Positions 2,753-21,434 of a stretch of DNA of 45,174 nt are shown here, piece by piece. The DNA lies in IMG/VR virus record IMGVR_UViG_3300009636_000184, positions 1-45,174 of that record; one strand, written 5' to 3'. The notes under the pieces were generated by a model. That model did not search any database. It was not told where the DNA came from and saw nothing but the letters and a program-made list of their open reading frames with translations. The stretch comes from a virus. The translations under genes were made by a program, and so were the position numbers. The stretch's first letter is position 1, and every line of letters starts with the position of its first letter.

Positions 2753-5002
2753 ATGTCCGACAGAGACATCAAAGCAACCACTCATTTTCCCGCAATGGGG
2801 CAAATTCGCCTTCTTGACCTTCCGGGGGCTATTCCCTATGGTCAAACTGCTCTCCCGATTCAGTCTACACAGGTCGCATTTGCCGACCAGATACGTTCTG
2901 ATGAGTCGATGATGCAGGAAGCGAACCTCAACCGCGAGGAATCCGAGAACTTCATCGCTACCCGAGGTTTAATCGGTCGCTGGAACATGGCAGAAATCAT
3001 GCTTCGTGCGTGGGTGGACCCAATCAAGTGGAAAGGTAGCGATCAATTCCGCTCGCATCTCGGTGTTCCGCTTGTCGCCGAGCAATTCTACAGCATTCAC
3101 AGCGTTGTGAACCAAACTTTGTTCGGGGCGTACCAAGTTTTTCAGGTTGACGCCACTTCTGGCACGCCGTTGGAATGTGCCGAGGCTCAGCAGGCGATTT
3201 TGAACGCTGAAATGAGGACGTGCGGCTTCAAGGGTGTCTCAGCGAAGTCTGAATTCCGCGAAATCACATACGACGGCTTGTTTTACGGTTTCGGCGTCGC
3301 TCTCTACGGCTGGGAGACGACAAAACAGAACATCATCAAGAAGGTGCAACGGATGCACCCTGCAACAATCACCGTAAATGGCAATTCAATCGTGATTCCG
3401 CAGAAGGATGAAGACGATATCGAAGAAAAGTGCATCGGCGTCTGCGAAATCAACATGCCGAAGCTGGAACATGTGCCAATTCGACGATTTCGATACGCTC
3501 CTGACCTCCGACGCGGCGACCCGCGTGTCGCGGAGTGGTGCGGACGCATTATTTACCTGACCTCGTACGATTTGGACAAGCTACGCAACACCGACGGCTG
3601 GAAAGTTCCCAGTCGGGAAGAACTCGTGAAGCTGACGACGCCTCAATTGATGGACGAGTCGCCGACGAACCCACTGGAGACGCTCGGGTCGAACACTGGG
3701 AACCCGGTTTTTCAACAAACGACTACGCCGCAGAAGGCGTTTCCTGAAAATTACACTCAACGTACCACGCACGACCCGCTAATGCGGAAGTTCGAAGCAT
3801 TTGACTACTGGACTCCGTATCGTCACTGCATTATCTTGGGCAAAGAGTACTGCATTCTCAACGAGACTCACAAATTCGGGCGTCCGCCGTTCCTTGGCTT
3901 CTGCTTCCGCAACGCTCCTGACTCGGCACACGGGTACGGGATTGCGTATTGGCTGACAGACTTCCAGCGGGTGTGCCAAGGCGTCATAAACGCTTATCTG
4001 GACGATATGAACTTGAATTTGATGGGGACGTACACTTCGCCTGCAGGTGCGAACAACTCCGCACAGGCACAGTGGATTTTCCCCGGCAAGATTTTCAAGT
4101 CGGACCCACAAGGTAAACTCGAACCGATGACACGCAATGCGGTTGATGGGAAAGAACCGCTGACGGTCATTGCACAGATGAAAGAATGGGCGTCTTCCAT
4201 CAGCGGGGCTGGAGCGGGCACGCTGGGCGGGAACCCGGGCAAATCGGGCGACATGCGTACACCTGCGGGCGTCGCGGCGGTCACCGGCGGTGAGAACGTC
4301 AAGTTGGCAGACCTCGTGGACGTAATTTCGGAACAAGTCTTCGTTCCGTTCTTGGAATTTTGCATCGAGCAGAATCAGAAACTCAAGCCGTCGCAGATTC
4401 GTGCGATGCTCTCACAGGAATTGGGCGAGGCATTCAAGCAAACGCCGTTGGACATCCTCAACGGCACGTACCGTGTCGATATCTCGGCGGGTGCTCGGCT
4501 TCAGGCACGGGCGGCGTTGGAGAAGTACATCGGCGTGCTGGAGACATTCATACAGGCTCCCGGCACTGTGGAGAACCTCGCGGTTCAAGCGATGAAGATT
4601 GACTTCAACGGTATGTTCGAAGCCTTGTTCGACACCTTCGGCGTTCCGTACAAGGAAAAGATTATCGTCCCGATGACTGATGAAGACAAGGCTCGGAGGG
4701 CGGCTGAGAAGTCGATGGCAGCACAGCAGAACAGCAAGCTGGCTCAACTTCAGGCTCAAGGTGAAATCAAGAAGGGCGTCGATGACAACCAAGCCGAGAA
4801 CCGCATGCTCATCGAGACAGGCAAGCACACGCTGAAGGAACAGGGTAAGGGTACTGACCAAGCACATGAGTTGGATATGCAGGCACGGCAGCAAGCGGCG
4901 GACGCTAAGGCTGAGGCTGCGACGCCCGAGGCTCAAGGCTTAGATCGAGCCGCGAAGGGCGCGTTTGCGAATATGGACAAGGCGGCATTCGGCGGACAGT
5001 AA
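2753..5002 (+). CDS. Portal protein
   Basis: 749 residues, the expected size for a large podovirus-type portal. It forms the ring through which DNA enters and leaves the head and which docks terminase. Evidence is position between TerL and scaffold/capsid, length, an alpha/beta central region with a conserved phage-like stretch (GYGIAYWLTDFQR, residues about 394-406), and a long charged, Ala/Gln/Lys-rich helical C-terminus from about residue 645 that resembles a portal crown or barrel. No catalytic motif is present or expected. ATG at 2753 lies 14 nt after AAAGGA. A 70-nt leader containing late-element copy 1 precedes it. Function rests mainly on gene order and overall pattern. Confidence 0.85.
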   Translation: MSDRDIKATTHFPAMGQIRLLDLPGAIPYGQTALPIQSTQVAFADQIRSDESMMQEANLNREESENFIATRGLIGRWNMAEIMLRAWVDPIKWKGSDQFRSHLGVPLVAEQFYSIHSVVNQTLFGAYQVFQVDATSGTPLECAEAQQAILNAEMRTCGFKGVSAKSEFREITYDGLFYGFGVALYGWETTKQNIIKKVQRMHPATITVNGNSIVIPQKDEDDIEEKCIGVCEINMPKLEHVPIRRFRYAPDLRRGDPRVAEWCGRIIYLTSYDLDKLRNTDGWKVPSREELVKLTTPQLMDESPTNPLETLGSNTGNPVFQQTTTPQKAFPENYTQRTTHDPLMRKFEAFDYWTPYRHCIILGKEYCILNETHKFGRPPFLGFCFRNAPDSAHGYGIAYWLTDFQRVCQGVINAYLDDMNLNLMGTYTSPAGANNSAQAQWIFPGKIFKSDPQGKLEPMTRNAVDGKEPLTVIAQMKEWASSISGAGAGTLGGNPGKSGDMRTPAGVAAVTGGENVKLADLVDVISEQVFVPFLEFCIEQNQKLKPSQIRAMLSQELGEAFKQTPLDILNGTYRVDISAGARLQARAALEKYIGVLETFIQAPGTVENLAVQAMKIDFNGMFEALFDTFGVPYKEKIIVPMTDEDKARRAAEKSMAAQQNSKLAQLQAQGEIKKGVDDNQAENRMLIETGKHTLKEQGKGTDQAHELDMQARQQAADAKAEAATPEAQGLDRAAKGAFANMDKAAFGGQ

Positions 5003-5023
5003 ACATTTTGAACGGAGCATAAC

Positions 5024-5461
5024 ATGAGCGATATACCAGCAGGAAATCCTGAATCACCCGTATCCCCATTTGTGCCGACGACTACTCCCACTATTGATCG
5101 GGCGAATCGCTTGATAAGCGTTCGGTCCAATCCCGGGTTTCTCGACATCATCCGCATCTCACAAGACCTCGTGAAAGAAGCTGAGGAACAGAGCACAGAC
5201 TTCCGTGGCTGGGACCCGCAGCAAATCGTTATGCTGAAGTGCCGTTCGCAGGCGGCGAAAGAGCATCACGTCCTACTCCTATCAAAAATCAACGAAGCCG
5301 TGGAGCAAGGGGTAGCTGAAGCCCGAGACCTCATGGCTAAGTTTGCGGTTAAAACTGCCGCCGAGGCGGCTGAGCAAGGCGACTACGTCCGACAGAAAAT
5401 GCTGGAGACGTTCGACCAGATGGATAACCGCATCGCGGGCAGTTATACGCCCGAAGGGTAA
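5024..5461 (+). CDS. Hypothetical protein between portal and scaffold
   Basis: 145 residues, not recognised. The N-terminal 30 residues are Pro/Ser/Thr-rich and probably flexible; the rest is predicted helical, with charged segments (EAEEQSTDFRGW, AKEHHVLLLSKINEAVEQ) and an acidic end. ATG at 5024 has GGAG seven bases upstream, 22 nt after the portal stop, so it is probably co-transcribed with portal. Position in the head-assembly block suggests a minor head or assembly factor, but nothing in the sequence identifies a reaction or partner. No transmembrane or signal sequence is visible. Confidence 0.65.
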   Translation: MSDIPAGNPESPVSPFVPTTTPTIDRANRLISVRSNPGFLDIIRISQDLVKEAEEQSTDFRGWDPQQIVMLKCRSQAAKEHHVLLLSKINEAVEQGVAEARDLMAKFAVKTAAEAAEQGDYVRQKMLETFDQMDNRIAGSYTPEG

Positions 5462-5495
5462 TTTCTAATAGTTGCTGACATCTCGTTACAGAAAA

Positions 5496-5523
5496 TTGAC
5501 TAATTACGCCATGATTGTATAGA
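5496..5523 (+). promoter_or_regulatory. Promoter-like site and late-element copy 2 upstream of scaffold
   Basis: TTGACT (5496-5501), 16 bases, TATAGA (5518-5523) resembles a sigma-70 promoter. The same bases contain GACT-N5-CGCC (5498-5510) followed by ATGATTG, the repeated element seen before portal, capsid and the 43140 gene. Whether host or phage polymerase uses it cannot be told from the sequence. Confidence 0.5.
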
Positions 5524-5542
5524 GCATTCCAAGGAGCATATC

Positions 5543-6661
5543 ATGTCTGAAACCACACAAGCCTTGAACGTTGCCATGAACGCGGAGTTGCAAAAGGCTA
5601 TTAACGCCGCGACGGACCCGACTGCATTGCGAGCCGCAATTCTCGCTGAAGCTGAACGGCAAGCAACCATTGCACAAGAAGCTGCGGCTACGCAGGCTGC
5701 GACGGACGCTGCGGCGGCTGCTGCGGCTACGACGGCTGCGGCTAATGAAGCCGCGACGGGCTATACTCGTGTCGAAAATATCGGCGGTCGAGATTTCGAG
5801 TTCTCGGGTGCCAACGAAGACGAAGTCAATCAGATGATTCTCAACGCTTATCGTATAGCGTACACCGTCCGTGAAGACGCGGCTCCAATGGTTGAGACTG
5901 TGCACACAGTTGACCCTGCGGCGGAAGCAGCGGCTGTTGCGGCGGCTGCTGCAGCGGAAGCAACGGCGAAGGCTGAACTCGAATTGAAATTCAAACGCGG
6001 TGAAATTACTGCCGCTGACTACATCGAGCAGTCAGGTGCGATGGATGCATATCTTGCAGCAAAAGGCGTTCCTATTGAGGCTTTGAAAGCCACGGTTGAG
6101 CAATCACAGGACAGTCAAGAGCAGCAATCGTGGGCTGAAGCCAGCGAAGCGTTTTTGCATTCGGTGTCGGGTGCGGACTGGCCGGGTGGTGAACAGAATC
6201 GAAACCTGATTGGTTTGAAAGTTGCGGAGTTGGGTCTTGTCGATGAAAAAGATAAGGTCGCGGCTCTCGCAAAAGCATGGACCGAGATGAAGCATACCGG
6301 AATGGTTTTCAAGAACGAGACTGCTACGGACCCAGCGGTGCTGGCTGCGGCTGAAGCTGCGAGAGTGGCAGCGGAAGCTGCGACCCGTGGGGCGGCTCCG
6401 GCGGCTGCGGCTACGACGGCTGCTACGGCCCCTGCGGCTCCTGCGGCTGCTCCGAAAAATCCGTCGGGTTCATCTGCATTATTCGGTGCGAGTTCTGGCG
6501 TAGGCGCGGGTGCAGGCACCACGGAAAGAGCCGTTGCTCCGACGCTACAAATTTCCAAGGACGCGAGTCCAGCCGAGATTTTGCAAGCATGGAAAGACCA
6601 GATAATGGCTCAAGGACAGAGTCCAGACGCCGCCTTCACGGCTGCGTTTGCGAAGAAGTAA
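5543..6661 (+). CDS. Capsid scaffold/assembly protein
   Basis: 372 residues, extremely Ala- and Glu-rich, with several predicted coiled-coil stretches (about 20-75, 130-165, 270-300), Ala/Pro-rich linkers and a Lys-containing C-terminal helix (ILQAWKDQIMAQGQ near the end). This composition and its place directly upstream of the major capsid gene are typical of scaffolding proteins, which template prohead assembly and then leave. A more globular region (SGADWPGGEQNRNLIGLKV, residues about 210-228) may be shared with related phages. ATG at 5543 follows AAGGAG at good spacing. No protease domain or catalytic triad is evident. Function is inferred from order and composition. Confidence 0.75.
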   Translation: MSETTQALNVAMNAELQKAINAATDPTALRAAILAEAERQATIAQEAAATQAATDAAAAAAATTAAANEAATGYTRVENIGGRDFEFSGANEDEVNQMILNAYRIAYTVREDAAPMVETVHTVDPAAEAAAVAAAAAAEATAKAELELKFKRGEITAADYIEQSGAMDAYLAAKGVPIEALKATVEQSQDSQEQQSWAEASEAFLHSVSGADWPGGEQNRNLIGLKVAELGLVDEKDKVAALAKAWTEMKHTGMVFKNETATDPAVLAAAEAARVAAEAATRGAAPAAAATTAATAPAAPAAAPKNPSGSSALFGASSGVGAGAGTTERAVAPTLQISKDASPAEILQAWKDQIMAQGQSPDAAFTAAFAKK

Positions 6662-6681
6662 ATCGTTATCTCAAGAAAAGT

Positions 6682-6706
6682 GACTAAGGTCGCCATAACT
6701 GAGAGA
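6682..6706 (+). promoter_or_regulatory. Late-element copy 3 upstream of major capsid gene
   Basis: GACT-N5-CGCC followed by ATAACTGAGAG. It matches the 43022 copy at nearly every position of the right half. It ends 11 nt before the capsid start codon; the GAGAGAGG at its end also serves as ribosome binding site. Confidence 0.5.
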
Positions 6707-6717
6707 GGTATAATACC

Positions 6718-7713
6718 ATGATTCTGCCCCCGGGCGTACAGAGCACTACCCTTGCTGCTTTCCCGCAGATTGCTTACGACCGCACTGCGATTTTGGAATG
6801 GCAGTTCAACACTCCATTTCTTGAGGAACTTTGCGACTTCCGTCCGCTGCCCCGCCGGTCTGGTCGGACGCTCCAGTTTTACGGCCAACAGCCGTACGCT
6901 GCCGCGACCTACGACTTGTCCGAAGGTATTCCGGGTCCGTCGCTCCAGTTGGTCCAAGTCTTCAGCGATGCTTTCGCTGACGAATACGGCGACTGGATTG
7001 GCATTTCAAACGTCGCGCAACAGATGTTCCTCGCGGACATCACGATGGACGCTAGCCGCAACCTGTCGTATCGGGGCGCTTTGACCTCGAACCTGATTGC
7101 GATTAACGGCTTCGAAGCTGCCGCGACCGCACAGTCATCTGCCCGCATCGACCTCCTCGACAACGAGTTCATTCTGTCCAACACGATTCGGAAGTGCGAA
7201 TCCCAGTTGATGGGCAACGCGGTTCCGGGGCGTGATGGCGGGCTGTACACGTCGGCGATGCACCCGTACGTTGTGTACGACTTCATGTCGGACAACTCTG
7301 CCGGGTCCGCCGTTGACTGGATGAAGCGTGTCGAGTCTGGCCAGAACGTTGGCAAGACCGACATGACTCGCGGCTACACCGTCCTCGAATGGGCGGGCGT
7401 CCGCATCATCCGCACGCAGACCGTGCCGACGTACGCCAACTACCCCTCAACGGGTAAGACCGGCTACGCCACGTACGTGGTTGGCCGTGAGGCGATGATG
7501 GCTTCCGAGTTGCTGGGCAATCGCGTTCCGCGTAACCCCAGCTTCAAGGTGAACGTCAAGACCTTCGGCGATAACGACATCGACCTGTCGAACCCAATGT
7601 TGCAGACACGAGCAATCGTGAGCTACGACTGGTTCCTCGGGGTCGTTGCGAGACCGAACACGAATGGCACCCCGGGTTTTAGAAGGGTGAGATGCGAAGT
7701 GTCGGCGGTCTAA
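6718..7713 (+). CDS. Major capsid protein (N4-gp56-like)
   Basis: 331 residues. It builds the icosahedral shell. The pattern fits the N4-gp56 group of HK97-fold capsid proteins: an N-terminal arm, a basic strand (LPRRSGRTLQFY, about 42-53), a LSEG turn (about 64-67), an acidic DEYGDWIGIS segment (about 84-93), a long helical spine, and a central TSAMHPYVVYDF stretch (about 178-189). It directly follows the Ala-rich scaffold, the usual order. ATG at 6718 is preceded by GAGAGAGG. A TATAAT at 6709 is too close to the start codon to be its promoter. The host of highly used GC-ending codons suggests strong expression. The capsid assignment is firm, the subfamily less so. Confidence 0.85.
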   Translation: MILPPGVQSTTLAAFPQIAYDRTAILEWQFNTPFLEELCDFRPLPRRSGRTLQFYGQQPYAAATYDLSEGIPGPSLQLVQVFSDAFADEYGDWIGISNVAQQMFLADITMDASRNLSYRGALTSNLIAINGFEAAATAQSSARIDLLDNEFILSNTIRKCESQLMGNAVPGRDGGLYTSAMHPYVVYDFMSDNSAGSAVDWMKRVESGQNVGKTDMTRGYTVLEWAGVRIIRTQTVPTYANYPSTGKTGYATYVVGREAMMASELLGNRVPRNPSFKVNVKTFGDNDIDLSNPMLQTRAIVSYDWFLGVVARPNTNGTPGFRRVRCEVSAV

Positions 7714-7723
7714 AAGTTTTCGC

Positions 7724-7753
7724 TTGACTTTCGGTCGGGAGTTGTAGCATAAT
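7724..7753 (+). promoter_or_regulatory. Sigma-70-like promoter before endonuclease gene
   Basis: TTGACT (7724-7729), 18 bases, CATAAT (7748-7753). It lies just after the capsid stop and 21 nt before the next start codon, giving the inserted endonuclease gene its own promoter. No GTACT operator is present here. Confidence 0.6.
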
Positions 7754-7774
7754 GGCTTCGGGAGGTAACACCCG

Positions 7775-8179
7775 ATGCCTTACAAAGACCCGACAAGTCC
7801 AGCGGCGAAAGCCAGTGCCAAGCGCAGGCACAAGAAATACCTTGAGACGCATGGCGGTTACCGCGAGGTGACCAAAAACTATGAGTCTCGGCACCCAGAA
7901 GCACGACGGAATTCGTGGTACAAACACGAACACGGGGTGACGCTGGTTGAGTTTGAAGCGCAGATTGTAGCACAAGGTGGTTTGTGTCCTATCGGGAATC
8001 ACCCGTTCGGACCTCGTGGTAGGCAAGGCAACTCGCCCTGTCAAGACCACAACCATGAGAGTGGCAAAAATAGAGCCATTCTCTGCCGCAATCACAATGT
8101 GGCTCTTGGGTTGTTCAACGATTCGGTTGAGGACATGGAAGCCGCAATCGAATACGTGAAGCAGTACAAAACAGTTTAG
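7775..8179 (+). CDS. Endonuclease VII-like HNH (beta-beta-alpha-metal) endonuclease
   Basis: 134 residues. The C-terminal half follows the recombination endonuclease VII pattern: a HGVTLVEFEAQ helix, QGGLCPIG knuckle, CQDHNHESG catalytic loop (His residues of the beta-beta-alpha-metal site), then LCRNHN and VALG. Two of the four usual zinc-knuckle cysteines are replaced (CPIGNH and CRNH), so zinc may be bound by C/H pairs or partly lost. The N-terminal half is a basic helix likely to touch DNA. ATG at 7775 follows GGGAGG. It is wedged between capsid and a putative structural gene and has its own promoter, as expected for a homing-type insertion. It could instead resolve branched DNA. Confidence 0.8.
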   Translation: MPYKDPTSPAAKASAKRRHKKYLETHGGYREVTKNYESRHPEARRNSWYKHEHGVTLVEFEAQIVAQGGLCPIGNHPFGPRGRQGNSPCQDHNHESGKNRAILCRNHNVALGLFNDSVEDMEAAIEYVKQYKTV

Positions 8180-11952: not shown

Positions 11953-14900
11953 GTGGCCGACTCAACTGCGCCGCCGATACCAACACCGCCGCCAGCACCC
12001 CCAGTTGAAGAACTCGGGGCGGGCGGGGAACCTACTATTCAACCTGCGCCTCCCGCTGGCGTAGGCTCGTGGGATGAAACTCCTGCAATGCGGGAGTCCC
12101 GCGCACGTCATCACGAAACTGCCCCGCTGTACTCACCTGAAGAAAAAGAAGAACGAAAACAAGCCATCAAATCAACTGCTAAAGCTGCCGCTCAAGAAGT
12201 TGGTGGGGCTGTTGCTGGTGTTGGTCAAATGATTGGTGGACCCTCGGCAGGAACTGCTGCTCAACAAGCCGTCGATGTCGTGACGAGCGAGGAATTGCGC
12301 AAAGCGGAAGGTCGCTCGCTGCCGTATCGTGCGATTACGACCGCAACGGAAATGCTTGGTATTCCCACAGGAGCTAAGGGCGAAGAGGAAGCTGCAGCCC
12401 GAGGAGACACGGCAGGTGTGGTGGGGCATGCTCTTGGCGCAGGCGTTGTCGGAGTCGGAGCGACCGTCGGCTTGGGCGGACGAGGGGGTGAAGAAGGCGG
12501 AACTGCACTTGGTCGTCCAGCAGAACCACCCGAGGACGCAGAACCACCCGAGGGCGCAGAACCACTCAGAGAGATGAATCGGGAGACCGTGAATGATTTG
12601 ATGGACCTCGGATACTCGCGCTCGCAAATTACGAATCTGGGTACTATCACTGAGATTCGCCGAATCATCGCAAACAAAATTCCAGCCCCACCTGAACCTG
12701 TTATTGGAGCCACTGAGCCAAAACCCACACCGAAGCCTGCAGAAGTTTCGCCGACTACTGCAGCCGAACAGGTAGCAAAAGCACCCGCCGCTGAAGGTGG
12801 TGAAGTTCCTGACCACATCACTTTTGACAAAACGGCGGGCAGCAAAGAAGTAGCTCCCCCCGCGCAAGATGAAAGACGCGACCTCAGTACCCGAATTTTC
12901 CCCAGCGGTCGAAAGACAGGTGTTGGACGACTAGCTGATACGACGTTTAATCTCATTCGGCAATACGAAGCGGAAGCAAAAAGCGCAGTAGAAACCGAAG
13001 GCGAAAAACCGACGCCGCCGACCACCGATATGCACGGCGTGCCACTGCCAACCAGCGTCGCTAAAGGGCACGGTGTAGAGCCAATCAAAGCGCTTGAGGT
13101 TATACATAACGCCCGAAGTGCTAATCCCACTCACGAGCCGTTCTTTCAAGTTACAATAGGACCCGCAGCGACTCAAGGCGTAAGTTTTGATACCGCCAAA
13201 GCGTTCAGTCCAGAAAATCGGACCTATAACTTCTCGACGCGGGCCGAAGCACAATCCTTTGTTGACAGCCTACAACCCAAAGCAGCAGGTGAACCCACAA
13301 TAGAACACGTCGAGAATGCGTCGCCGTTCCTTGACCCTAGTAAACCGGGCGTCCCGGGTCAGAACATCGTTCGGTTGATGCAGAACGGCAAAGAAGTCGG
13401 ACGTGTCAATTACAAAATTGAGGGCACCACCGCCGCTATCACTGGTTCGTATGTTGACCCCAAGCTGCAGGGCAAAGGATACGCCCAACAGATGTATTTG
13501 CAGGCGGCGGATAAAGCCCGCGCCGCTGGCGCAACGTCGCTGACTTCCGACCTTCAGGGCAGTACCACCATGGATGCGGCTCGCGTATGGGATAGGCTGA
13601 CCGATAAAGGACACGCCGTTGAGAAGGTTCCATCCAAGCTAGGTTCGCCGGGATACAAAATGGATTTGACTCAGCCCGGGGCACCGAAGGGCGGCTTTCC
13701 AACGTGGCTCCAGAAGCCTCTCGCGGTAGATGCGCAAACACACGCTCAATCTGTGCCGGAGATTCCCGGTGCTGAGGGCGCGAGACGACGAATCGCCAAG
13801 CCGGATGTTCCTATCACGGCTCTTTCAGATTCAATGGCGAAGCTGGGCGGCAAGATGGTCACACCGCCGCCAGCAACGACACCAACAGTCAATCCTGTGG
13901 ATGCTCCGGCTGCTATAGCTCCTATGCCTAAACTCGACCGAACCCAAATTCAAGGCGGTACGTCCACGCAGCCTTATCCGACATACCACGAGGCCAGCGG
14001 CGACCAGACAAACCCATGGGTGCGGCGTTCCGTGGACCCGGCGAATAGCGCATCACCGACGAATGAGAATCGACTACTCATGGTGCAGTTCGCCTCCGAC
14101 CTGATTAACAAGGGCGCGACGGAAGTTAAAGACGACGCTTCGAACTACTACGACAAACTTTACTCAGGCGTGCGCCCGGGGTATGCGCGCATGCAGGACT
14201 TCTGGGAGATTCCACAATGGCACGGATTTGTCGCTCGTAACTTTCCCGATGCCGACGTGTACGTTGTCCGAGACATGGAGCAGGCGAAACAATTCCTGAA
14301 TGACGCGAAGTACGGGCGCGTGACATTCTCTGCACTGGATGTGAACAAGCACCTCATTCGAGACCTCGCCGCCAACTATCAGGGACATATTGATGTCGGC
14401 GGGTACGTGGCTCCCGGCACTTTTTCCGACCTGCCGAATGTGAAGTGGCACGACTCGATGGAATCGCTCACGAAGGATGCGGGCGTTGAGTACCGGGGCG
14501 GCGCAGACTATCGCCACTATGCAGGGTCAGACGTGATTCCGCGCCTCACGATGTCGAAGGGCTGCCTGCACAAGTGCGCGTTCTGCACCATCGAAAAGCA
14601 ATTGGTCATGCCATCATCGGACGACATCACTCAGCAAGCGGACGCGATTGCACAGTTGGGTTCGAAGCTGGTGTATCTGAATGACAAGACGTTCGGGCAG
14701 GCGAAAAACTATCAGGACTTGGCGGAATTGAATACCCGGATGAAAGAGAAGAACCCGAACTTTCAAGGGTTCGTCGTGCAGACGACTGCGGCGCAACTGG
14801 GAAAAATCCCATCCGAGTGGCTGGCGAAATCCGGCATCAAGTATGTGGAAATCGGCGTCGAGAGTTACAACGACCCCATCCTGAAGGCGATGCACAAACC

Positions 14901-17900
14901 CGCCACGGAGAGTCTTATCAACAAGACTGTGGATAAACTCCGGCAGAACAACATCACGATGATTCCCAACATCTTGATTGGATATCCCGGGGAGACGGCG
15001 GAAACGTACGCACACACGCTGCAGTTCTTGCAGGACAATCGTGACATCATTTCGCACGCGAACATCTACAACCTCGCGCTCTACGAGAACACCGAACTCG
15101 GGAAGACGATGACAACGGCGTCTCCCGGGGACTTCAATGAAAATGTGTTGGAGAAGTCTTTCCACAAGGACCCGGCGCTCCATCAGCAGTTTGCGGGTGA
15201 CCTGTACGGTATGGCGTCGAAACTGCTTGAAGCGAAACCCACACCCTTGCAGGCACCACCAGAGCCGCAGTTTTGGGATGCGCTTGCTCGCCGTGACCAG
15301 ATGCCCGGGCAGGATGTGAATCTTAGCGAAGCGTACGGTAAGACGGGCGGCTACGTCGGCGGGCATGTGGAGCATCGGCTGGATGGCAAGACTCGGGAAG
15401 AAGTTCATCAGGCGTATGTCGATAAACTCGGCGTTACGCATGGTCCCGAATGGGAATCAGTAATCCCCGAAGAGACGCTCGCCGAAGGAAATACACGTCA
15501 CAGCGTGGTCACACACGAAGACGGACACGTAGTTGAAGCTGCGCGTGTCGGGTGGCCTACAGATGGGCTTGTTGTTCATAGCCCGCTCCACCCGGGCGTG
15601 AGCGCGGGAGCAGCCGGGGCAACTGATTTTGGTCCTGTCTTCCGACAACTCCCGGGGGTTACCGAAACGGAACCCGGCAGGTTTCATTTTTCCGCTCAGG
15701 CGTTGAAGGATAACTGGACAAAAGCCCTTCGCGTTTACTTAGCGGGAGCGGTGAGTCAGGAACAAATTCACGGCATTCCCTTTAACTCCGAGTCCGGGTC
15801 AGCTTACGGCGACGTTCGGGTACTTCACCAACTCGGGAAGGCGATGGGCTTAACGCCAAAAGAAATTCAAGGCGGGATTGACAGTACGTTAACGACACTA
15901 AGAAAAGACTGGTCAGACCCCGCCGTTAATGGTATAGTGAAGCAGATGTCGGCAGTGCGAGAGGACGGTCTCTCGAAAGCCCTTTTGCAGAGCGAGGACC
16001 GGGTTCAAGATTTACTTCGGCAAGTCAGACAAGTGTGGGAGGCACAAAAACATGGCGACGTTGAAAGAGATAATGCAGCAGATGGTGGAGTCGTTCCAGA
16101 AGCTAAGCCCGGAGACGCAGGAAGAGGTGCGGCAGGCGATACGGGAGAAGACACTGGGGAAGCCCAAGGAAAACTCTTCACCCAAAAAGGCGTAAATCTC
16201 TTTGCACAGGCTGTAAAACAATACGGCACCACGGACGACATCAAGAAGGCGGGCTACGTCGGGCTTGACGGGAGCATGCTCGACTTCTCCGAGGGTCAAG
16301 CCACGCGCACACTAGACCATGGGGATATTGCGTCGATTCCCGGCGTCCAGTCCGCGCACAACTCGAATCCACGTTTCGACTTTGTGATGAAAACCGGGGC
16401 GATGCGCGTGATTGATATTCCACGGTCCAAGTATCTCGGGCTGATGATTTCGGCGAATCACCCTCCGACCCACGACCAGTTGGACCGGGTTTTACCCCTT
16501 TTAGCGGACGGCAGACAGGTCGATATTGATTTGATTCACCCGGACTGGGCGCAGCCCGGGGGCGCAAGCGCGAAAGATGTTCACGACATGGATGGGCTAC
16601 AACGCGTCATACGGGACGCTCAGAAAGAATCAGGCGTGTCGGGTGCCGTCGAAGCCCGCAAGGGTCCATGGCAGCAGATTGTGGACTTGCACAACACCAC
16701 TGGTGGGTCCACCTACAATATCGCGCAGGGCAAGAACATGATGGGCACCGATACATACGCCGTCGCAATACATCCTGACCGCAGTCTCTCGGTTTCGGGG
16801 GAATTGAAGCCTCAAGTCGTGCAGCAATACGCCAAGAAGAACGACGATCTTCTGTCGCAGCCGACGGAAAGCCTCGGCACTTGGAACAACAAGGCAGCCA
16901 AGACACACGTCCTCGATGTTGTGAAAACCACTCCCGACCGAGCGGAAGCTGTGCGGTTGGGTTTCCACCACGGGCAGGAAGCTATCTATCATTTGAAGGA
17001 CGGCGGCGAAGGCGAAATCTTCCTGAAGAACGAAGCACGCCCGATTGAGTCACCTACTGTGAGTACTCGCGTGCCGACTCGAACAGTGAAGGGCGAGACT
17101 ATCGAAGACCACACGAATCAGTCGCTCATTTCGGATATGGAGGCTGCGAAGGCTGCGCCCGGATACGTCGAGAAGATGGTGAAGCGAGTGCAGGACATCC
17201 CCGGGTTTGTGAAACCCGAAGGCGATGCTCAGACCACTGCCGATGCGTACATTCGGCACGCCGCAGATAACATCAAATTCAATTACCACAAGTTGACGCC
17301 TGCGGAGATTGCGTACAACGAGCAATGGTACCCAGTCGGCGCTCACGAGCGCGGGCTGGATGTCGCAAAGACACACGGCATCACTCCGAACCAAGCGTGG
17401 GCAGTGACCTCAGTTGAGTCTCCGATGACGGACTGGGACCAGAACACGGCGCTTGCCGAGCGGACGGCGGACATTTGGAAGAACCAACAGAACACAAAGT
17501 TCACACCTGAGATGCGGAAAGCAGCGGACGAGATTCTCGGCGTCCCGGCGATGGCAAAATTCGCGCCGCTTTTCAAATCTCTGCAAGGGAAAACACTTGC
17601 AGGACTGGCAAGCACGCCAGAAAAGCAAGCGTGGTGGTTGCGGTTGTACGACGAAGGTCATAATCCTCGGTCGTACCAGACATGGGGTCCCGACGGAAAG
17701 CAGCGCGGCCTCGCCAAGAATGTGGATGGGTCGGACGCCGCCGTGGGCTGGAGTTTCCAAAACCACATTCAGAAGGCACTTTCTATTTTGAGCGACGGGT
17801 CTCCCGAGAACATCAGCAAGCAACTCGGCTACGGGCACAAGGTTCGTAACTTCTACAACAACCAAGCCGCGCCGGACGACCCGCGATTCTTGACGATTGA

Positions 17901-18498
17901 CACGCACGCGGTCGCGGCGGCGCAGTTGCGCCCGATGTCAGGGAAGCATCCTGACGTGTCGTCGAACTTTGGAACCATCAGCAACGGTCCCCATGGACTC
18001 AGCGGTACATATCCGCTGCACGACGCCGCGTATCGCCTCGCAGCGAAAGAACTTGACATTCCCATACCGAGTAGGCTACAATCGCCAGTATGGGCGAAGA
18101 TACGCGAGGTCTTCACGGATGATTTTAAGACCGAGGAAAACCTCGACGCGGTAGATGCAATCTGGAGACAACACAATGACGGAAAAATCACAGCAGACGA
18201 AGCCCGAAATCAAATCTGGGACTACGCCGCCCGATGGCACGATGCAGTTGCTAGCGGAGTACGGAATTCCACTGACCAGAGAGAACTATTTGAATCTGGC
18301 GTTCGCGGGACACCCGCCAAAGGAACCGCTGGACGGGGAGATAGAGGCGGAACTTCCGTGGCAAATCAGGAACAAGGTACCCCTGAAGTAACTTCATTCG
18401 CTCGCCCCAAGAAACTTGAACAAGGTGGTCTGTCTCTCTCGTTCTTAAGCGGTCTTTCCAATCTCAGCAATCGCGGTCGATTCTTGCCCCCCAAATAA
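11953..18498 (+). CDS. Giant polyvalent protein with GNAT, radical SAM and M41-like peptidase segments
   Basis: 2181 residues from GTG 11953 (GGAG five bases before). Visible segments: Pro-rich N-terminus; a UBA-like helical patch (about 205-242); GNAT acetyltransferase-like domain (about 468-565, QGKGYAQ at 506-512); a Rossmann-like stretch (about 745-850) joined to a radical SAM barrel with Cys871-x3-Cys875-x2-Cys878 and YPGE; an FtsH/M41-like zinc peptidase (H1188-E-D-G-H1192, likely third ligand D1287); a module with G1434-Y-V-G-L-D-G and LDHGDI; a further domain about 1555-1700; and a DUF7178-like C-terminal domain (about 1710-2060, GYGHKVRNFYNN at 1959, IDTHAVAA at 1982). Multi-enzyme 'polyvalent' proteins of phages and conjugative elements are often injected with DNA to disarm the host. 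Delivery here is inference. Two genes are nested in its +1 frame. Confidence 0.85.
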   Translation: MADSTAPPIPTPPPAPPVEELGAGGEPTIQPAPPAGVGSWDETPAMRESRARHHETAPLYSPEEKEERKQAIKSTAKAAAQEVGGAVAGVGQMIGGPSAGTAAQQAVDVVTSEELRKAEGRSLPYRAITTATEMLGIPTGAKGEEEAAARGDTAGVVGHALGAGVVGVGATVGLGGRGGEEGGTALGRPAEPPEDAEPPEGAEPLREMNRETVNDLMDLGYSRSQITNLGTITEIRRIIANKIPAPPEPVIGATEPKPTPKPAEVSPTTAAEQVAKAPAAEGGEVPDHITFDKTAGSKEVAPPAQDERRDLSTRIFPSGRKTGVGRLADTTFNLIRQYEAEAKSAVETEGEKPTPPTTDMHGVPLPTSVAKGHGVEPIKALEVIHNARSANPTHEPFFQVTIGPAATQGVSFDTAKAFSPENRTYNFSTRAEAQSFVDSLQPKAAGEPTIEHVENASPFLDPSKPGVPGQNIVRLMQNGKEVGRVNYKIEGTTAAITGSYVDPKLQGKGYAQQMYLQAADKARAAGATSLTSDLQGSTTMDAARVWDRLTDKGHAVEKVPSKLGSPGYKMDLTQPGAPKGGFPTWLQKPLAVDAQTHAQSVPEIPGAEGARRRIAKPDVPITALSDSMAKLGGKMVTPPPATTPTVNPVDAPAAIAPMPKLDRTQIQGGTSTQPYPTYHEASGDQTNPWVRRSVDPANSASPTNENRLLMVQFASDLINKGATEVKDDASNYYDKLYSGVRPGYARMQDFWEIPQWHGFVARNFPDADVYVVRDMEQAKQFLNDAKYGRVTFSALDVNKHLIRDLAANYQGHIDVGGYVAPGTFSDLPNVKWHDSMESLTKDAGVEYRGGADYRHYAGSDVIPRLTMSKGCLHKCAFCTIEKQLVMPSSDDITQQADAIAQLGSKLVYLNDKTFGQAKNYQDLAELNTRMKEKNPNFQGFVVQTTAAQLGKIPSEWLAKSGIKYVEIGVESYNDPILKAMHKPATESLINKTVDKLRQNNITMIPNILIGYPGETAETYAHTLQFLQDNRDIISHANIYNLALYENTELGKTMTTASPGDFNENVLEKSFHKDPALHQQFAGDLYGMASKLLEAKPTPLQAPPEPQFWDALARRDQMPGQDVNLSEAYGKTGGYVGGHVEHRLDGKTREEVHQAYVDKLGVTHGPEWESVIPEETLAEGNTRHSVVTHEDGHVVEAARVGWPTDGLVVHSPLHPGVSAGAAGATDFGPVFRQLPGVTETEPGRFHFSAQALKDNWTKALRVYLAGAVSQEQIHGIPFNSESGSAYGDVRVLHQLGKAMGLTPKEIQGGIDSTLTTLRKDWSDPAVNGIVKQMSAVREDGLSKALLQSEDRVQDLLRQVRQVWEAQKHGDVERDNAADGGVVPEAKPGDAGRGAAGDTGEDTGEAQGKLFTQKGVNLFAQAVKQYGTTDDIKKAGYVGLDGSMLDFSEGQATRTLDHGDIASIPGVQSAHNSNPRFDFVMKTGAMRVIDIPRSKYLGLMISANHPPTHDQLDRVLPLLADGRQVDIDLIHPDWAQPGGASAKDVHDMDGLQRVIRDAQKESGVSGAVEARKGPWQQIVDLHNTTGGSTYNIAQGKNMMGTDTYAVAIHPDRSLSVSGELKPQVVQQYAKKNDDLLSQPTESLGTWNNKAAKTHVLDVVKTTPDRAEAVRLGFHHGQEAIYHLKDGGEGEIFLKNEARPIESPTVSTRVPTRTVKGETIEDHTNQSLISDMEAAKAAPGYVEKMVKRVQDIPGFVKPEGDAQTTADAYIRHAADNIKFNYHKLTPAEIAYNEQWYPVGAHERGLDVAKTHGITPNQAWAVTSVESPMTDWDQNTALAERTADIWKNQQNTKFTPEMRKAADEILGVPAMAKFAPLFKSLQGKTLAGLASTPEKQAWWLRLYDEGHNPRSYQTWGPDGKQRGLAKNVDGSDAAVGWSFQNHIQKALSILSDGSPENISKQLGYGHKVRNFYNNQAAPDDPRFLTIDTHAVAAAQLRPMSGKHPDVSSNFGTISNGPHGLSGTYPLHDAAYRLAAKELDIPIPSRLQSPVWAKIREVFTDDFKTEENLDAVDAIWRQHNDGKITADEARNQIWDYAARWHDAVASGVRNSTDQRELFESGVRGTPAKGTAGRGDRGGTSVANQEQGTPEVTSFARPKKLEQGGLSLSFLSGLSNLSNRGRFLPPK
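16052..16195 (+). CDS. Nested small gene in +1 frame of the giant gene
   Basis: 47 residues, wholly inside the giant gene in another frame. ATG 16052 has a near-perfect GGGAGG (16037-16042) nine bases upstream; TAA at 16193-16195. The product is a regular charged amphipathic helix (MATLKEIMQQMVESFQKL, then SPETQEEVRQAIREKT) with a Lys-rich end. Across these codons nearly all third bases are G or C in the nested frame, whereas the giant frame there has mostly A/T third bases and reads as a low-complexity Gly/Asp/Glu linker. That is how a selected nested gene should look. Function unknown. A TGGTCA-N17-TATAGT sequence at 15910-15938 could be its promoter but is weak. Confidence 0.6.
   Translation: MATLKEIMQQMVESFQKLSPETQEEVRQAIREKTLGKPKENSSPKKA
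18053..18082 (+). promoter_or_regulatory. Sigma-70 promoter inside the giant gene
   Basis: TTGACA (18053-18058), 18 bases, TACAAT (18077-18082), close to consensus, within coding sequence and 94 nt upstream of the nested ATG at 18176. The flank resembles other promoters of this genome (CTTGACATT). Confidence 0.65.
18176..18391 (+). CDS. Nested gene in +1 frame near the 3' end of the giant gene
   Basis: 71 residues, ATG 18176 with GGAG nine bases upstream; an in-frame ATG at 18155 lacks that signal. The middle (LLAEYGIPLTRENYLNLAFA, then GHPPKEPLDGEIEAELP) resembles a family of short bacterial and phage proteins of the form 'YGIPLTRENYL...G.PPEEL..E.EAELP' that I recall but cannot name. In this stretch the third codon bases are mostly G/C in the nested frame and mostly A/T in the giant frame, and the giant protein here is a Gly-rich tail past its last recognisable domain. 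Its own promoter lies at 18053. It ends 107 nt before the giant stop. Function unknown. Confidence 0.7.
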   Translation: MTEKSQQTKPEIKSGTTPPDGTMQLLAEYGIPLTRENYLNLAFAGHPPKEPLDGEIEAELPWQIRNKVPLK

Positions 18499-18526
18499 AA
18501 AACGGGGCGACTTTGAGCCGCCCCGT
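18495..18526 (-). terminator. Rho-independent terminator of the leftward secreted-protein gene
   Basis: Read leftward: ACGGGGCG pairs with CGCCCCGT (18519-18526 with 18502-18509) around a 9-base loop, followed by six Ts and more T-rich sequence. On the + strand there is no T run, so it serves the leftward gene. Confidence 0.85.
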
Positions 18527-18546
18527 CCCAAACACCTGCGGGAATG

Positions 18547-19434
18547 TTACCGCATGTTCTTGCTGACGCGAATCGGCATCCGGGGAATTGGCATCGAGTG
18601 CAATACCAACTTCGAGAACGGAGCATCCTCGCCTTGCGACCCGATGCAGACGCCACCCGTGACGAAGTAGGTCATGTAGATGTCGCCTGCCGCGTTCGTG
18701 TTGCCGTCCACACCAGTCGGAATACCAATGAAGCTGACCGTGTTCGTGCCATCTGTCGCGTTGAAGTAGTACACGTTTCCAGACTGCACGCTTGAGAATC
18801 CACCGATGGCATCCGCTGCCGCCGAGGACGTGAGGTTTTCAATACTAGGACCACCCGTGCAGAGTTTGGCGCTAATCTTCACGGTTGTGCCTGTCATCGA
18901 AAACGTTGAAGTGCTGATGGCAAACGTAACGAGCGCCGGTGCTCCAGTGTATCCCGAGGGGTCGTTGTTGTTGCCAGTGTTGCCGTCGAGTGTGCCGGTC
19001 CATGTTCCAGTCGGAATCGACTGAGCCATGAGGCAGAAACTACCGTGGTCTCCCGCCGAGCAACCACCGCTGGTCGCTGTGAACGTGCCAGTGCTTTGCC
19101 CGTAAGCGAGACTGAAAGTGAACACCGAACCATCAACGGGGGACTTGAACGTGAGGGTCTTCAACGAACCACTTCCCGAGAAAGACACCGTGGGCGAAGT
19201 GAATTGAGAATCGGCATTCGCACACGCTGAATTTGAGAGGATGTCCACGACGGTGCCGCTAGGCGTTACGTCGAAGGTGATCTGAAGCGGATTACCGTCA
19301 ACGGTGTTGCGGGCACTCTCGCTCGACGCCAGAATCACGTACGGACCATTGGCGTTTGACGATGCCTTAGCTGACATGCCAAAACTGACGACTGCAAGAA
19401 TCGTCAACAACATCGAAATCAAGGGCTTTTTCAT
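18547..19434 (-). CDS. Secreted beta-rich protein, probable lysogenic/cargo 'moron'
   Basis: 295 residues, leftward. The start at 19434 gives a textbook signal peptide (MKKPLISMLLTILAVVSF, cleavage near SAKA/SS) and has AAGGAAA upstream; the frame opens 13 codons earlier but that start lacks signals. The mature part is Gly/Ser/Thr-rich, strand-rich, with few charges and scattered Cys pairs (ACA, GGCSAG, KLCTGG, GVCIGS), plus GTWTGTLDGN, a style common among exported proteins of soil acidobacteria. No catalytic motif. It has its own promoter/operator (19523-19551) and terminator (18495-18526) and is opposed to all nearby genes, the classical layout of an independently expressed cargo gene. It may alter the host surface. 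Confidence 0.8.
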   Translation of the reverse strand: MKKPLISMLLTILAVVSFGMSAKASSNANGPYVILASSESARNTVDGNPLQITFDVTPSGTVVDILSNSACANADSQFTSPTVSFSGSGSLKTLTFKSPVDGSVFTFSLAYGQSTGTFTATSGGCSAGDHGSFCLMAQSIPTGTWTGTLDGNTGNNNDPSGYTGAPALVTFAISTSTFSMTGTTVKISAKLCTGGPSIENLTSSAAADAIGGFSSVQSGNVYYFNATDGTNTVSFIGIPTGVDGNTNAAGDIYMTYFVTGGVCIGSQGEDAPFSKLVLHSMPIPRMPIRVSKNMR

Positions 19435-19522
19435 TGTGTTTCCTTTTTCTCTTAGCCTGCCGCACGGTCGCACTGTGCGGTTCAGACAACGTCATCATCG
19501 CAGGAACCCTGCCCGAGCGTCA

Positions 19523-19551
19523 ATAGTACTAAAGTACCGATCTGCTGTGTA
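19523..19551 (-). promoter_or_regulatory. Leftward promoter with GTACT operator box
   Basis: Read leftward: TACACA (19551-19546), 17 bases, TACTAT (19528-19523). The -10 lies inside GGTACT-TTA-GTACTAT (19538-19523), the box also found at four rightward promoters. Predicted transcript start near 19516 leaves an 82-nt leader. Confidence 0.6.
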
Positions 19552-19562
19552 AAATTTACATC

Positions 19563-19591
19563 TTGACTTTGCTAGAGGAGGGGCGTACCAT
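19563..19591 (+). promoter_or_regulatory. Possible promoter overlapping the start of the 19590 gene
   Basis: TTGACT (19563-19568), 17 bases, TACCAT (19586-19591). If used, transcription would begin near 19598, one base before an in-frame ATG at 19599, making the message leaderless. GAGGAGGGG within the spacer is also a good ribosome site for ATG 19590, so the two readings conflict. Confidence 0.4.
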
Positions 19592-19904
19592 GGGCAGCAT
19601 GACGCTCGATCAAGCACTAATGGTGGGCGAACTATTGCTCTTGGCATGGGTGGTCGTGCAGGGCGAGTATGTCCGTTATTATGAACGAGAAGTCCACAGG
19701 ATGACCCGGGACCGATTCGAGGAGCGCAAAAAATGGCGGTTAGAAAAGCAAGAACAAGCGCGGAAAAAGAGCGAGCCAAAGACCTCCGACTCCGGCGCGA
19801 ATTCGGTATCACTCTCGCCGACCGAGAACAGCGAGCCAAAGACCAAGACAACAAGTGCGAAATCTGTGGCGGGGCGCTCGACGCCTTCGGACCCCCTTGT
19901 TTAG
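19590..19904 (+). CDS. Small membrane-anchored basic protein
   Basis: 104 residues from ATG 19590 (GAGGAGGGG just upstream); ATG 19599 is the alternative. An N-terminal hydrophobic helix (ALMVGELLLLAWVVVQ, about residues 9-24) is followed by a strongly basic/acidic amphipathic helix (REVHRMTRDRFEERKKWRLE) and a Ser/Thr/Lys/Pro-rich low-complexity tail. The last 172 nt overlap the next gene in another frame; the low-complexity tail may therefore be a by-product of that overlap, or the true gene may once have ended earlier. It looks like a single-pass inner-membrane protein. Function unknown; a superinfection or lysis accessory role is only a guess. Confidence 0.5.
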   Translation: MGSMTLDQALMVGELLLLAWVVVQGEYVRYYEREVHRMTRDRFEERKKWRLEKQEQARKKSEPKTSDSGANSVSLSPTENSEPKTKTTSAKSVAGRSTPSDPLV

Positions 19905-20200
19905 ACCACTTCCACTTCCGCGTAGCAGCATTCCGTCGAACGGCGGGCGACTTGCTAACTGGCAAGTGGATTGCTAGCGGGTTTGACGAACAAAACCGTG
20001 TATATATTACACGGTCGGCAGAGACGAAGGCGGCGGCGCTCGCCGAGGTGAAAAAAGTAATGATGCCGTGGTCGATTCGTGCCCTTTTATGCTGGAAGTG
20101 TAATAGGGGGTTAGGTTTCGTTGAGAAGTTTTTTGACGCGACGCGGCACCCGGATAACCTCCTGCCGATCATCGCGTACCTGAAGCGGCGGCTTAAATAG
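19733..20200 (+). CDS. Endonuclease VII-like HNH endonuclease with an insertion
   Basis: 155 residues; ATG 19733 has GGAG eight bases upstream. The knuckle CEICGGAL, catalytic loop CLDHFHF and closing LLCWKCNRGLG with a helical end (NLLPIIAYLKRRL) match endonuclease VII. Between the catalytic His pair and the second Cys pair there is an extra stretch of about 60 residues (RRTAGDLLTGKW to MMPWSIRA), where relatives have about 10. The core residues remain, so it may be active. It overlaps the preceding membrane-protein gene by 172 nt in another frame, consistent with insertion into or over that gene. Its stop codon TAG is part of the left inverted repeat of the next cassette. Confidence 0.8.
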   Translation: MAVRKARTSAEKERAKDLRLRREFGITLADREQRAKDQDNKCEICGGALDAFGPPCLDHFHFRVAAFRRTAGDLLTGKWIASGFDEQNRVYITRSAETKAAALAEVKKVMMPWSIRALLCWKCNRGLGFVEKFFDATRHPDNLLPIIAYLKRRLK

Positions 20201-20222
20201 GGGAATTATATAGATGACTCCC
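20194..20222 (+). repeat. Left inverted repeat of small-gene cassette 1
   Basis: TAAATAGGGGAATTATATAG then ATGACTCCC. It pairs with 20530-20552 at 20 of 22 positions over the core, and matches the 40095 copy at all 20 of its first bases. Confidence 0.8.
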
Positions 20223-20244
20223 GCAAGGGAACAAAGGAGATAAC

Positions 20245-20538
20245 ATGCACTACAGAAACGGACGCGAAGCAAAGAACGGAGACAAAGTAGTTCTTTTCTC
20301 GGGTTATGCGGCACCCGTGGTTGGTATTTTGTATGACGCCGTCGTTGGGAACGACTACTGCAACGGTAAAGTTGCCGTGACGAAACCGAACGACCCATCC
20401 CCGAACTTGCGAGAGGTCCTGCACTTAGACGATGTGCTGGCTCTCCTACCTGCTCGGACAGACGTTTTGGCAGACACGCACCCAGATGTTTTCAAGCAAA
20501 TTGAACTTGTGCCCGACAAGTCAAAAGTAGGGAGTTAA
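20245..20538 (+). CDS. Small phage protein inside inverted-repeat cassette 1
   Basis: 97 residues, ATG 20245 with AGGAG eight bases upstream. The N-terminal half (RNGREAKNGDKVV, then VVGILYDAVVGNDYCNGKVAV) looks like a small SH3-like beta barrel seen in other phages; the second half has LHLDDVLALLPART and an acidic end. No enzyme motif. The gene is enclosed by about 22-bp inverted repeats at 20194 and 20530, so 5' and 3' untranslated RNA could pair. Its leader is shared almost base for base with the unrelated 40150 gene, which points to a common regulatory or mobile cassette rather than to homology of the genes. Confidence 0.65.
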   Translation: MHYRNGREAKNGDKVVLFSGYAAPVVGILYDAVVGNDYCNGKVAVTKPNDPSPNLREVLHLDDVLALLPARTDVLADTHPDVFKQIELVPDKSKVGS

Positions 20539-20558
20539 CTATATAATTCCCTAAATAG
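20530..20558 (+). repeat. Right inverted repeat of cassette 1
   Basis: GGGAGTTAACTATATAATTC then CCTAAATAG; its first base lies in the final codons of the 20245 gene. The first 22 bases are the exact reverse complement of bases 40102-40123 in cassette 2. Confidence 0.8.
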
Positions 20559-20561
20559 ACC

Positions 20562-20590
20562 TTGACACGGACTCGGTACTTTGGTACTAT
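20562..20590 (+). promoter_or_regulatory. Promoter with GTACT operator box
   Basis: TTGACA (20562-20567), 17 bases, TACTAT (20585-20590). The box GGTACT-TTG-GTACTAT spans 20575-20590 and covers the -10. It sits four bases after cassette 1. Confidence 0.75.
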
Positions 20591-20602
20591 CGGACAGTGG
20601 TA

Positions 20603-20637
20603 TGGCGTCACTCGTGATGCATGCAGCGGGGACGCCA
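20603..20637 (+). other. Hairpin in the 5' leader of the 20667 gene
   Basis: TGGCGTC (20603-20609) pairs with GACGCCA (20631-20637) around 21 bases, beginning about six bases after the predicted transcript start. A comparable hairpin occurs in the leader of the 40534 gene. It may protect the 5' end or regulate elongation; no T run follows. Confidence 0.5.
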
Positions 20638-20666
20638 GCCATGCAGTTTTTACATAGTGAGGTCTT

Positions 20667-21434
20667 ATGACCGAAGTTGCAGCACCCGCAACCCCAGCGA
20701 AACCAGTTTCAGAAATCACCAAAATTGAGAACGACATCACATGGATTAAGGCGCACGTCATTATGGTCCTGCTCGCTGTCGCCTTGATTGCCGGGAGCAT
20801 CATCGGCGGCATTGCCCTGTTTGAAAGCCTCGTGGAGAAACACGACGCTCGGGTCGCCGCGACACAGCTTCAGAAGGAAGGCGTTGACACCGCTGCGCAG
20901 GCGGCGCTCGTCGCTGAGTTGGCGAAGGAACACTCGGACGACATGGTTCGGGACGCACAGCAAACGGCTCTCATTCAGACTCTAGTCCAGCAGATGGCGA
21001 CTCAGCGGGCGGCGACGGCGAAGCAAGTTGCCACGGATGCGACGCTCGATGCGAAATCGACAGCGGCACGTCTCACGTTGCAGACGGGCACCAATCCTAC
21101 GGAAGTGACGACCAACGGAGACTTTCTCACGATGGACTTAAACGTGAGTCATATCGTTATTTCTGATTTGGACCTGTTGAGGCAAGCACAGAGCGATGTG
21201 AACAATCTCAGTCAGCAGTTGGATGCACAGCAGACCATCACCGACGACAAGACGAAGGAACTGGACACCGCGAATCAAGTCATCGCGGCGGACAAGGTAG
21301 AACTGGTGCAGACTATCAAGGCGGATAACGCGGCGTGTGACGTTCGGGTTGACAAAGAAGCTGCGAAGGGTCGCAAGCGTACCTTCTGGGGCGTTGTCAT
21401 CACGGCTATCACCATGGGAGCCTTACTCAAATAA
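20667..21434 (+). CDS. Membrane-anchored coiled-coil protein, possible spanin-like
   Basis: 255 residues. An N-terminal cytoplasmic stretch of about 30 residues precedes a strong transmembrane helix (VIMVLLAVALIAGSIIGGIA, about 32-51), then long Ala/Gln/Asp-rich helical segments (about 60-115 and 170-225) predicted as coiled coil, and a second short hydrophobic helix at the end (TFWGVVITAITMGALL). Start ATG 20667 follows GTGAGG. It has its own promoter, operator and a hairpin leader. The plan resembles membrane-spanning lysis or virion-ejection proteins, but there is no lipobox or Rz/Rz1 pair and lysin is 22 kb away. Function uncertain. Confidence 0.65.
   Translation: MTEVAAPATPAKPVSEITKIENDITWIKAHVIMVLLAVALIAGSIIGGIALFESLVEKHDARVAATQLQKEGVDTAAQAALVAELAKEHSDDMVRDAQQTALIQTLVQQMATQRAATAKQVATDATLDAKSTAARLTLQTGTNPTEVTTNGDFLTMDLNVSHIVISDLDLLRQAQSDVNNLSQQLDAQQTITDDKTKELDTANQVIAADKVELVQTIKADNAACDVRVDKEAAKGRKRTFWGVVITAITMGALLK

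Follow-up and report, generated by a model that had tools for sequence, protein, structure and literature searches.

A small gene in the +1 frame of a giant phage gene, a probable companion of the DUF7178 domain

The closest known arrangement to the locus described here is that of the Rz/Rz1 spanins of phage lambda, in which, as here, a small phage gene lies within a larger one, in its +1 frame. Spanin genes occur in embedded, overlapped and separated architectures, the small gene is often missed by gene callers, and no spanin family that combines the embedded form with the others is reported in the paper on them (PMC6139136). In contrast, the one homologous pair described here shows embedded, overlapped, separated and also convergent forms. 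Moreover the layouts are alike while the types of protein are not: Rz1 is a lipoprotein with a lipobox cysteine, whereas the 71-aa product here has no cysteine and therefore no lipobox; and Rz is an inner-membrane i-spanin of the lysis cassette, whereas the host gene here encodes a giant protein with GNAT, radical SAM and DUF7178 domains. In this respect the host is similar to the phage polyvalent proteins (PMC5512222), as it unites several unrelated enzymatic domains in one giant protein of the phage late region. The word "overlapping" was not found in the text of that paper, and a literature search found no paper on "DUF7178". The family of the nested small gene appears to be undescribed so far.

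The features of this locus are listed in Table 1, with positions in the window, i.e., the whole stretch of 45,174 nt of viral DNA that was analyzed.

Table 1. Features at the nested-gene locus, in window coordinates
Feature	Position	Strand	Description
Host giant gene	11953..18498	+	2181 aa, polyvalent type: GNAT, radical SAM and DUF7178 domains
Second +1 nested ORF	16052..16195	+	47 aa, MATLKEIMQQMVESF..., 70% identical in L003
DUF7178 (PF23802 / phrog_3842) region of giant protein	17113..18267	+	all-helical model, pLDDT 92
Promoter-like TTGACA-N18-TACAAT	18053..18082	+	conserved in six related phages
Shine-Dalgarno-like GGAG	18164..18167	+	8 nt before ATG 18176
Nested small gene (candidate)	18176..18391	+	71 aa, +1 frame of giant gene; homologues, substitution pattern, model
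Giant protein tail across small gene	18260..18498	+	poorly conserved; substitutions follow nested frame up to 18391

A sequence-only reading of this DNA had proposed a 71-residue ORF from ATG 18176 in the +1 frame of the giant gene, with a third-base codon bias in its favor, and both points held. The GC content at codon positions 1/2/3 is 0.56/0.40/0.67 in the nested frame and 0.67/0.56/0.40 in the host frame over the same stretch, the former being like that of the other window genes (0.57/0.42/0.64); likewise, codon usage over the stretch agrees more closely with the nested than with the host frame. An extra in-frame ATG lies upstream at 18155, and the relatives align from 18176 (M-EKSQ). The core of the product spans residues ~20-66, with a P-[LV]-T-[RK]-[ED]-N-Y-L motif and an acidic tail ending in LP, and was modelled as short helices (pLDDT 81-86 at residues 21-60), while the first ~20 residues are weakly constrained and predicted to be disordered (pLDDT ~48 at residues 1-20). 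Searches of Pfam, PHROG, NCBIfam, PADLOC and PDB returned no profile match, and those of plasmids and cultured phages no significant match; the best structure match among viral models was A0A516LVL4 (77 residues, 34% identical, E 0.0085).

A first scan of viral contigs yielded one relative, 68% identical and nested at the same place, and alignment-based scans following that relative yielded many further homologues. In total there were 71 distinct motif sites, 69 viral, spread over dozens of uncultured phages, and two from one acidobacterial metagenome-assembled genome (MAG), which bears out the suggestion that the product is a recurring short protein form. A DUF7178 domain borders every one of the 69 viral copies, all selected by the motif, with the copy at its 3' edge: 56 copies are fully nested in +1, two are partly nested, ten overlap at the start only and one is convergent. 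In the acidobacterial MAG (L010, L011, L161:1345-1722 and L162) the same motif occurs in a ~125-aa protein that is present in three copies, one of them adjoining an integrase-like gene, and DUF7178 is absent from that genome. A cellular family was rejected as an explanation: the motif was found in this one acidobacterial genome of 199 searched, and there without DUF7178.

Since a motif search selects for the motif, the search was restarted from a DUF7178 alignment, itself built from motif-bearing loci, and the small core was then sought by profile. Among the best 80 of at least 582 DUF7178 matches, 72 of the 78 loci with room for it carried the small core: 54 nested in +1, two partial, 11 overlapping or adjacent in +1, and five separate in +2. 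The profile found no small gene at the other six, and none was recognizable in at least two cultured phages with DUF7178 (zth2-2 and CRP-738); thus the small gene is not always required. On the other hand, the linkage survives without overlap, as the five copies separate in another frame and the convergent one (L033) demonstrate; in L033 the small gene (3986-4150) and the DUF7178 gene (4145-8140) run tail to tail and are still adjacent. Homologues therefore exist outside giant-gene overlaps, and nesting in a giant gene, which the sequence-only reading had taken as the setting of the small gene, is one of several arrangements beside DUF7178. The only cultured phage found with a copy was Rhodobacteraceae phage LS06-2018-MD07, where a weak, diverged form (YTQENYL, E 0.016; L156:6979-7222) lies in the +1 frame inside an ORF annotated as a methyltransferase.

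Substitutions revealed which of the two frames is under constraint. Across the core in 17 disjoint sister pairs, changes at nested codon positions 1/2/3 numbered 48/32/103 (p ~1e-10), a count that includes the motif octamer by which the loci were found; the 14 codons upstream of the octamer exhibited the same tendency (655/476/1114, in overlapping pairs). When the window was compared with L002, L008 and L017 over 18260-18391, changes piled up at host position 1 (which is nested position 3) and were depleted at host position 3, opposite to the region upstream, and in a sliding scan of the giant gene host position 3 changed least here for these three relatives. For example, against L017, a relative found via DUF7178 and not via the motif, changes at host positions 1/2/3 were 14/11/6 over 18260-18391 and 6/10/29 just upstream. 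The nested frame is thus constrained in its core, as substitutions fall on its third base, while the N-terminal third of the nested gene (18174-18260) was under host-frame constraint in most comparisons. Judged by these substitutions, the tail of the giant protein over the nested core is a secondary passenger. The notion of a small gene hidden in an older giant gene is thereby reversed: over the overlap it is the small frame that is constrained, and the giant tail that reads across it.

Two nested +1 genes had been claimed for this giant gene, and the second ORF (16052-16195) does show conservation, in one relative: host third-position change is depressed against L003, and no relatives were found outside a near-identical group of five contigs that includes L003. 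The other +1 ORFs (at 12329, 13730 and 15137) were dismissed because the sliding scan gave no consistent nested-frame substitution signal for them.

The near-consensus promoter-like site reported within the giant coding sequence was located, with TTGACA at 18053-18058, TACAAT at 18077-18082, 11 of 12 consensus matches and 93 nt between the end of TACAAT and ATG 18176. It is the top-scoring of five promoter-like matches in 11953-20700, a range where 3.9 are expected by chance. The third codon positions inside both hexamers are invariant across the six related phages (p ~7e-5 by a background estimate), among which about half of the synonymous codons differ in most pairs; within this clade a chance match is therefore unsupported. 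The site is absent from L002, L009 and most other lineages, and a second clade (L042, L052 and relatives) carries CTGACA-N18-TACAAT at a different position. Hence, of the claim that the nested gene has a promoter of its own, conservation in six close relatives stands and family-wide presence does not: the putative promoter inside the giant gene is a clade-specific addition. At the position of GGAG the relatives have AAGGAG or AAGGA, and a start codon with a Shine-Dalgarno-like site was found in 69 of the 71 copies, some of these matches being due to chance since the best site was chosen within each ORF. The longest invariant run over the six related phages is AAAATCACAGC at 18184-18194, right after the nested start; it is longer than the promoter hexamers, and dual coding or initiation are possible reasons.

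The DUF7178 model matched proteins of uncultured phages and, in PDB, nothing at E <= 0.001. The C-terminal domain of the giant gene is homologous to ~200-aa standalone phage proteins (hhalign probability 99.8%), in which DUF7178 was the only Pfam match; no small gene was recognized near the five standalone proteins examined. Two of the standalone proteins are annotated as N-glycosylases, Gordonia phage WilliamBoone gp181 (L251:1812-2435) and Synechococcus phage S-CRES3 gp63 (L252:1992-2591). Aligned by hhalign to E. coli Nth (a query recognized as HhH-GPD), DUF7178 gave a non-significant E of 0.28 with the Lys and Asp regions paired. These two annotations and the Lys/Asp pairing suggest a glycosylase fold, for which the tests yielded no significant similarity; DUF7178 may be a divergent DNA glycosylase. 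A terminator-like hairpin of 14 pairs (18499-18529) lies between the giant gene and a convergent gene (18547-19473).

Host ORFs vary widely: in some the protein ends with DUF7178, and others continue beyond the small gene for thousands of bases. According to a quick tree of 113 DUF7178 domains, whose deep forks are weak, the nested state must have been gained or lost at least 14 times, six of these changes being forced by well-supported branches; the tree scores L050 as "none", although a small gene was found further downstream, where the host frame is apparently broken. Through these changes the small gene is thus retained, and it is the host ORF that acquires the overlap or gives it up. Fusion with a neighboring gene was considered as the cause of nesting and set aside: when fused hosts were compared with unfused ones, the C-terminal extensions of the former had no match among ORFs downstream of the latter, and simple stop loss is therefore preferred. 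If fusion was involved, its partners would have to vary or be unrecognized. Under stop loss, removal of its stop codon would have let a host ORF run on over the small gene, which lies in another frame, and full nesting would be the result; such an event probably happened or was reversed several times.

Is the ORF a gene? Over the nested stretch the +1 frame stays open in 62% of protein-preserving codon shuffles, which also predict, per giant gene, ~2.9 +1 ORFs that begin with ATG and reach 71 aa or more, so that a frame of such length is expected by chance and is not evidence by itself; it is conservation that counts. A chance frame conserved as a by-product of the giant protein's own constraint is nevertheless hardly credible, because the core is less well conserved in the giant frame, whose synonymous positions there are the ones held fixed, and because homologues occur without any overlap; on the nested-core constraint and the separate copies this reading was discarded. 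Alternatively, ribosomes translating the giant gene might enter the stretch by a +1 frameshift, which would give the giant protein an alternative C-terminus. As 18174-18260 shows host-frame and not nested-frame constraint, substitutions alone would permit a shift there, yet we hold this to be quite improbable: nearly every copy has a Shine-Dalgarno-like site with its start codon, some copies are standalone, separate or convergent, no conserved shift site stood out on casual inspection, and in L009 and L111 a stop codon directly precedes the nested ATG, which disfavors frameshifting upstream of it. In our judgement from the sequence evidence, 18176-18391 is almost certainly a real protein gene that was missed, and ribosomes would start on it internally, at ATG 18176, guided by a Shine-Dalgarno site of its own, with a sigma-70-type promoter inside the giant gene probably adding a separate transcript in the clade of the window phage.

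As for the role of the product, homology, frame conservation, association with DUF7178, the substitution pattern and the changes of architecture were read in the sequences, and from them we infer that the small protein is expressed, binds DUF7178 and acts as a chaperone or inhibitor. The family is probably a dedicated companion of long-form DUF7178 in tailed phages: the small helical protein with its disordered N-terminus would most likely bind the DUF7178 part of a virion-associated polyvalent protein and hold it inactive or assembly-competent until packaging. In L041 and L052 an internal-virion-protein gene (phrog_6651) immediately follows the DUF7178 gene, a neighbor that fits the expectation for a virion or ejected protein. 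The same position of the pair is in favor of a different reading, in which the small gene is real and its product an independent minor virion or ejection-complex protein (or one with an unrelated role), merely the late-operon neighbor of DUF7178; this is possible though doubtful, since adjacency is kept when the genes are convergent, when they are separate in another frame and across very different host architectures. Such kept adjacency indicates a functional tie to the DUF7178 domain, to which we assign a good probability. Sequence alone fits a chaperone, an inhibitor and a minor virion component equally. A more specific and rather unlikely variant is a built-in antidote, in which the small protein would inhibit an injected, DNA-glycosylase-like DUF7178 effector and so shield the phage's own DNA; such inhibition, again a speculative suggestion, would act during the making and packaging of the effector, with the inhibitor encoded inside or beside the effector gene.

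Whichever role is preferred, it appears that a phage gene family of wide distribution has largely escaped annotation owing to its overlap with a larger gene. A single homologous pair displays all the stages, with the two genes apart, overlapping or one fully inside the other, and the proposed upstream-stop-loss route to embedded genes thereby becomes testable on real lineages. Moreover the small family offers a way to approach DUF7178, a domain of unknown function found in polyvalent proteins of the virion type.
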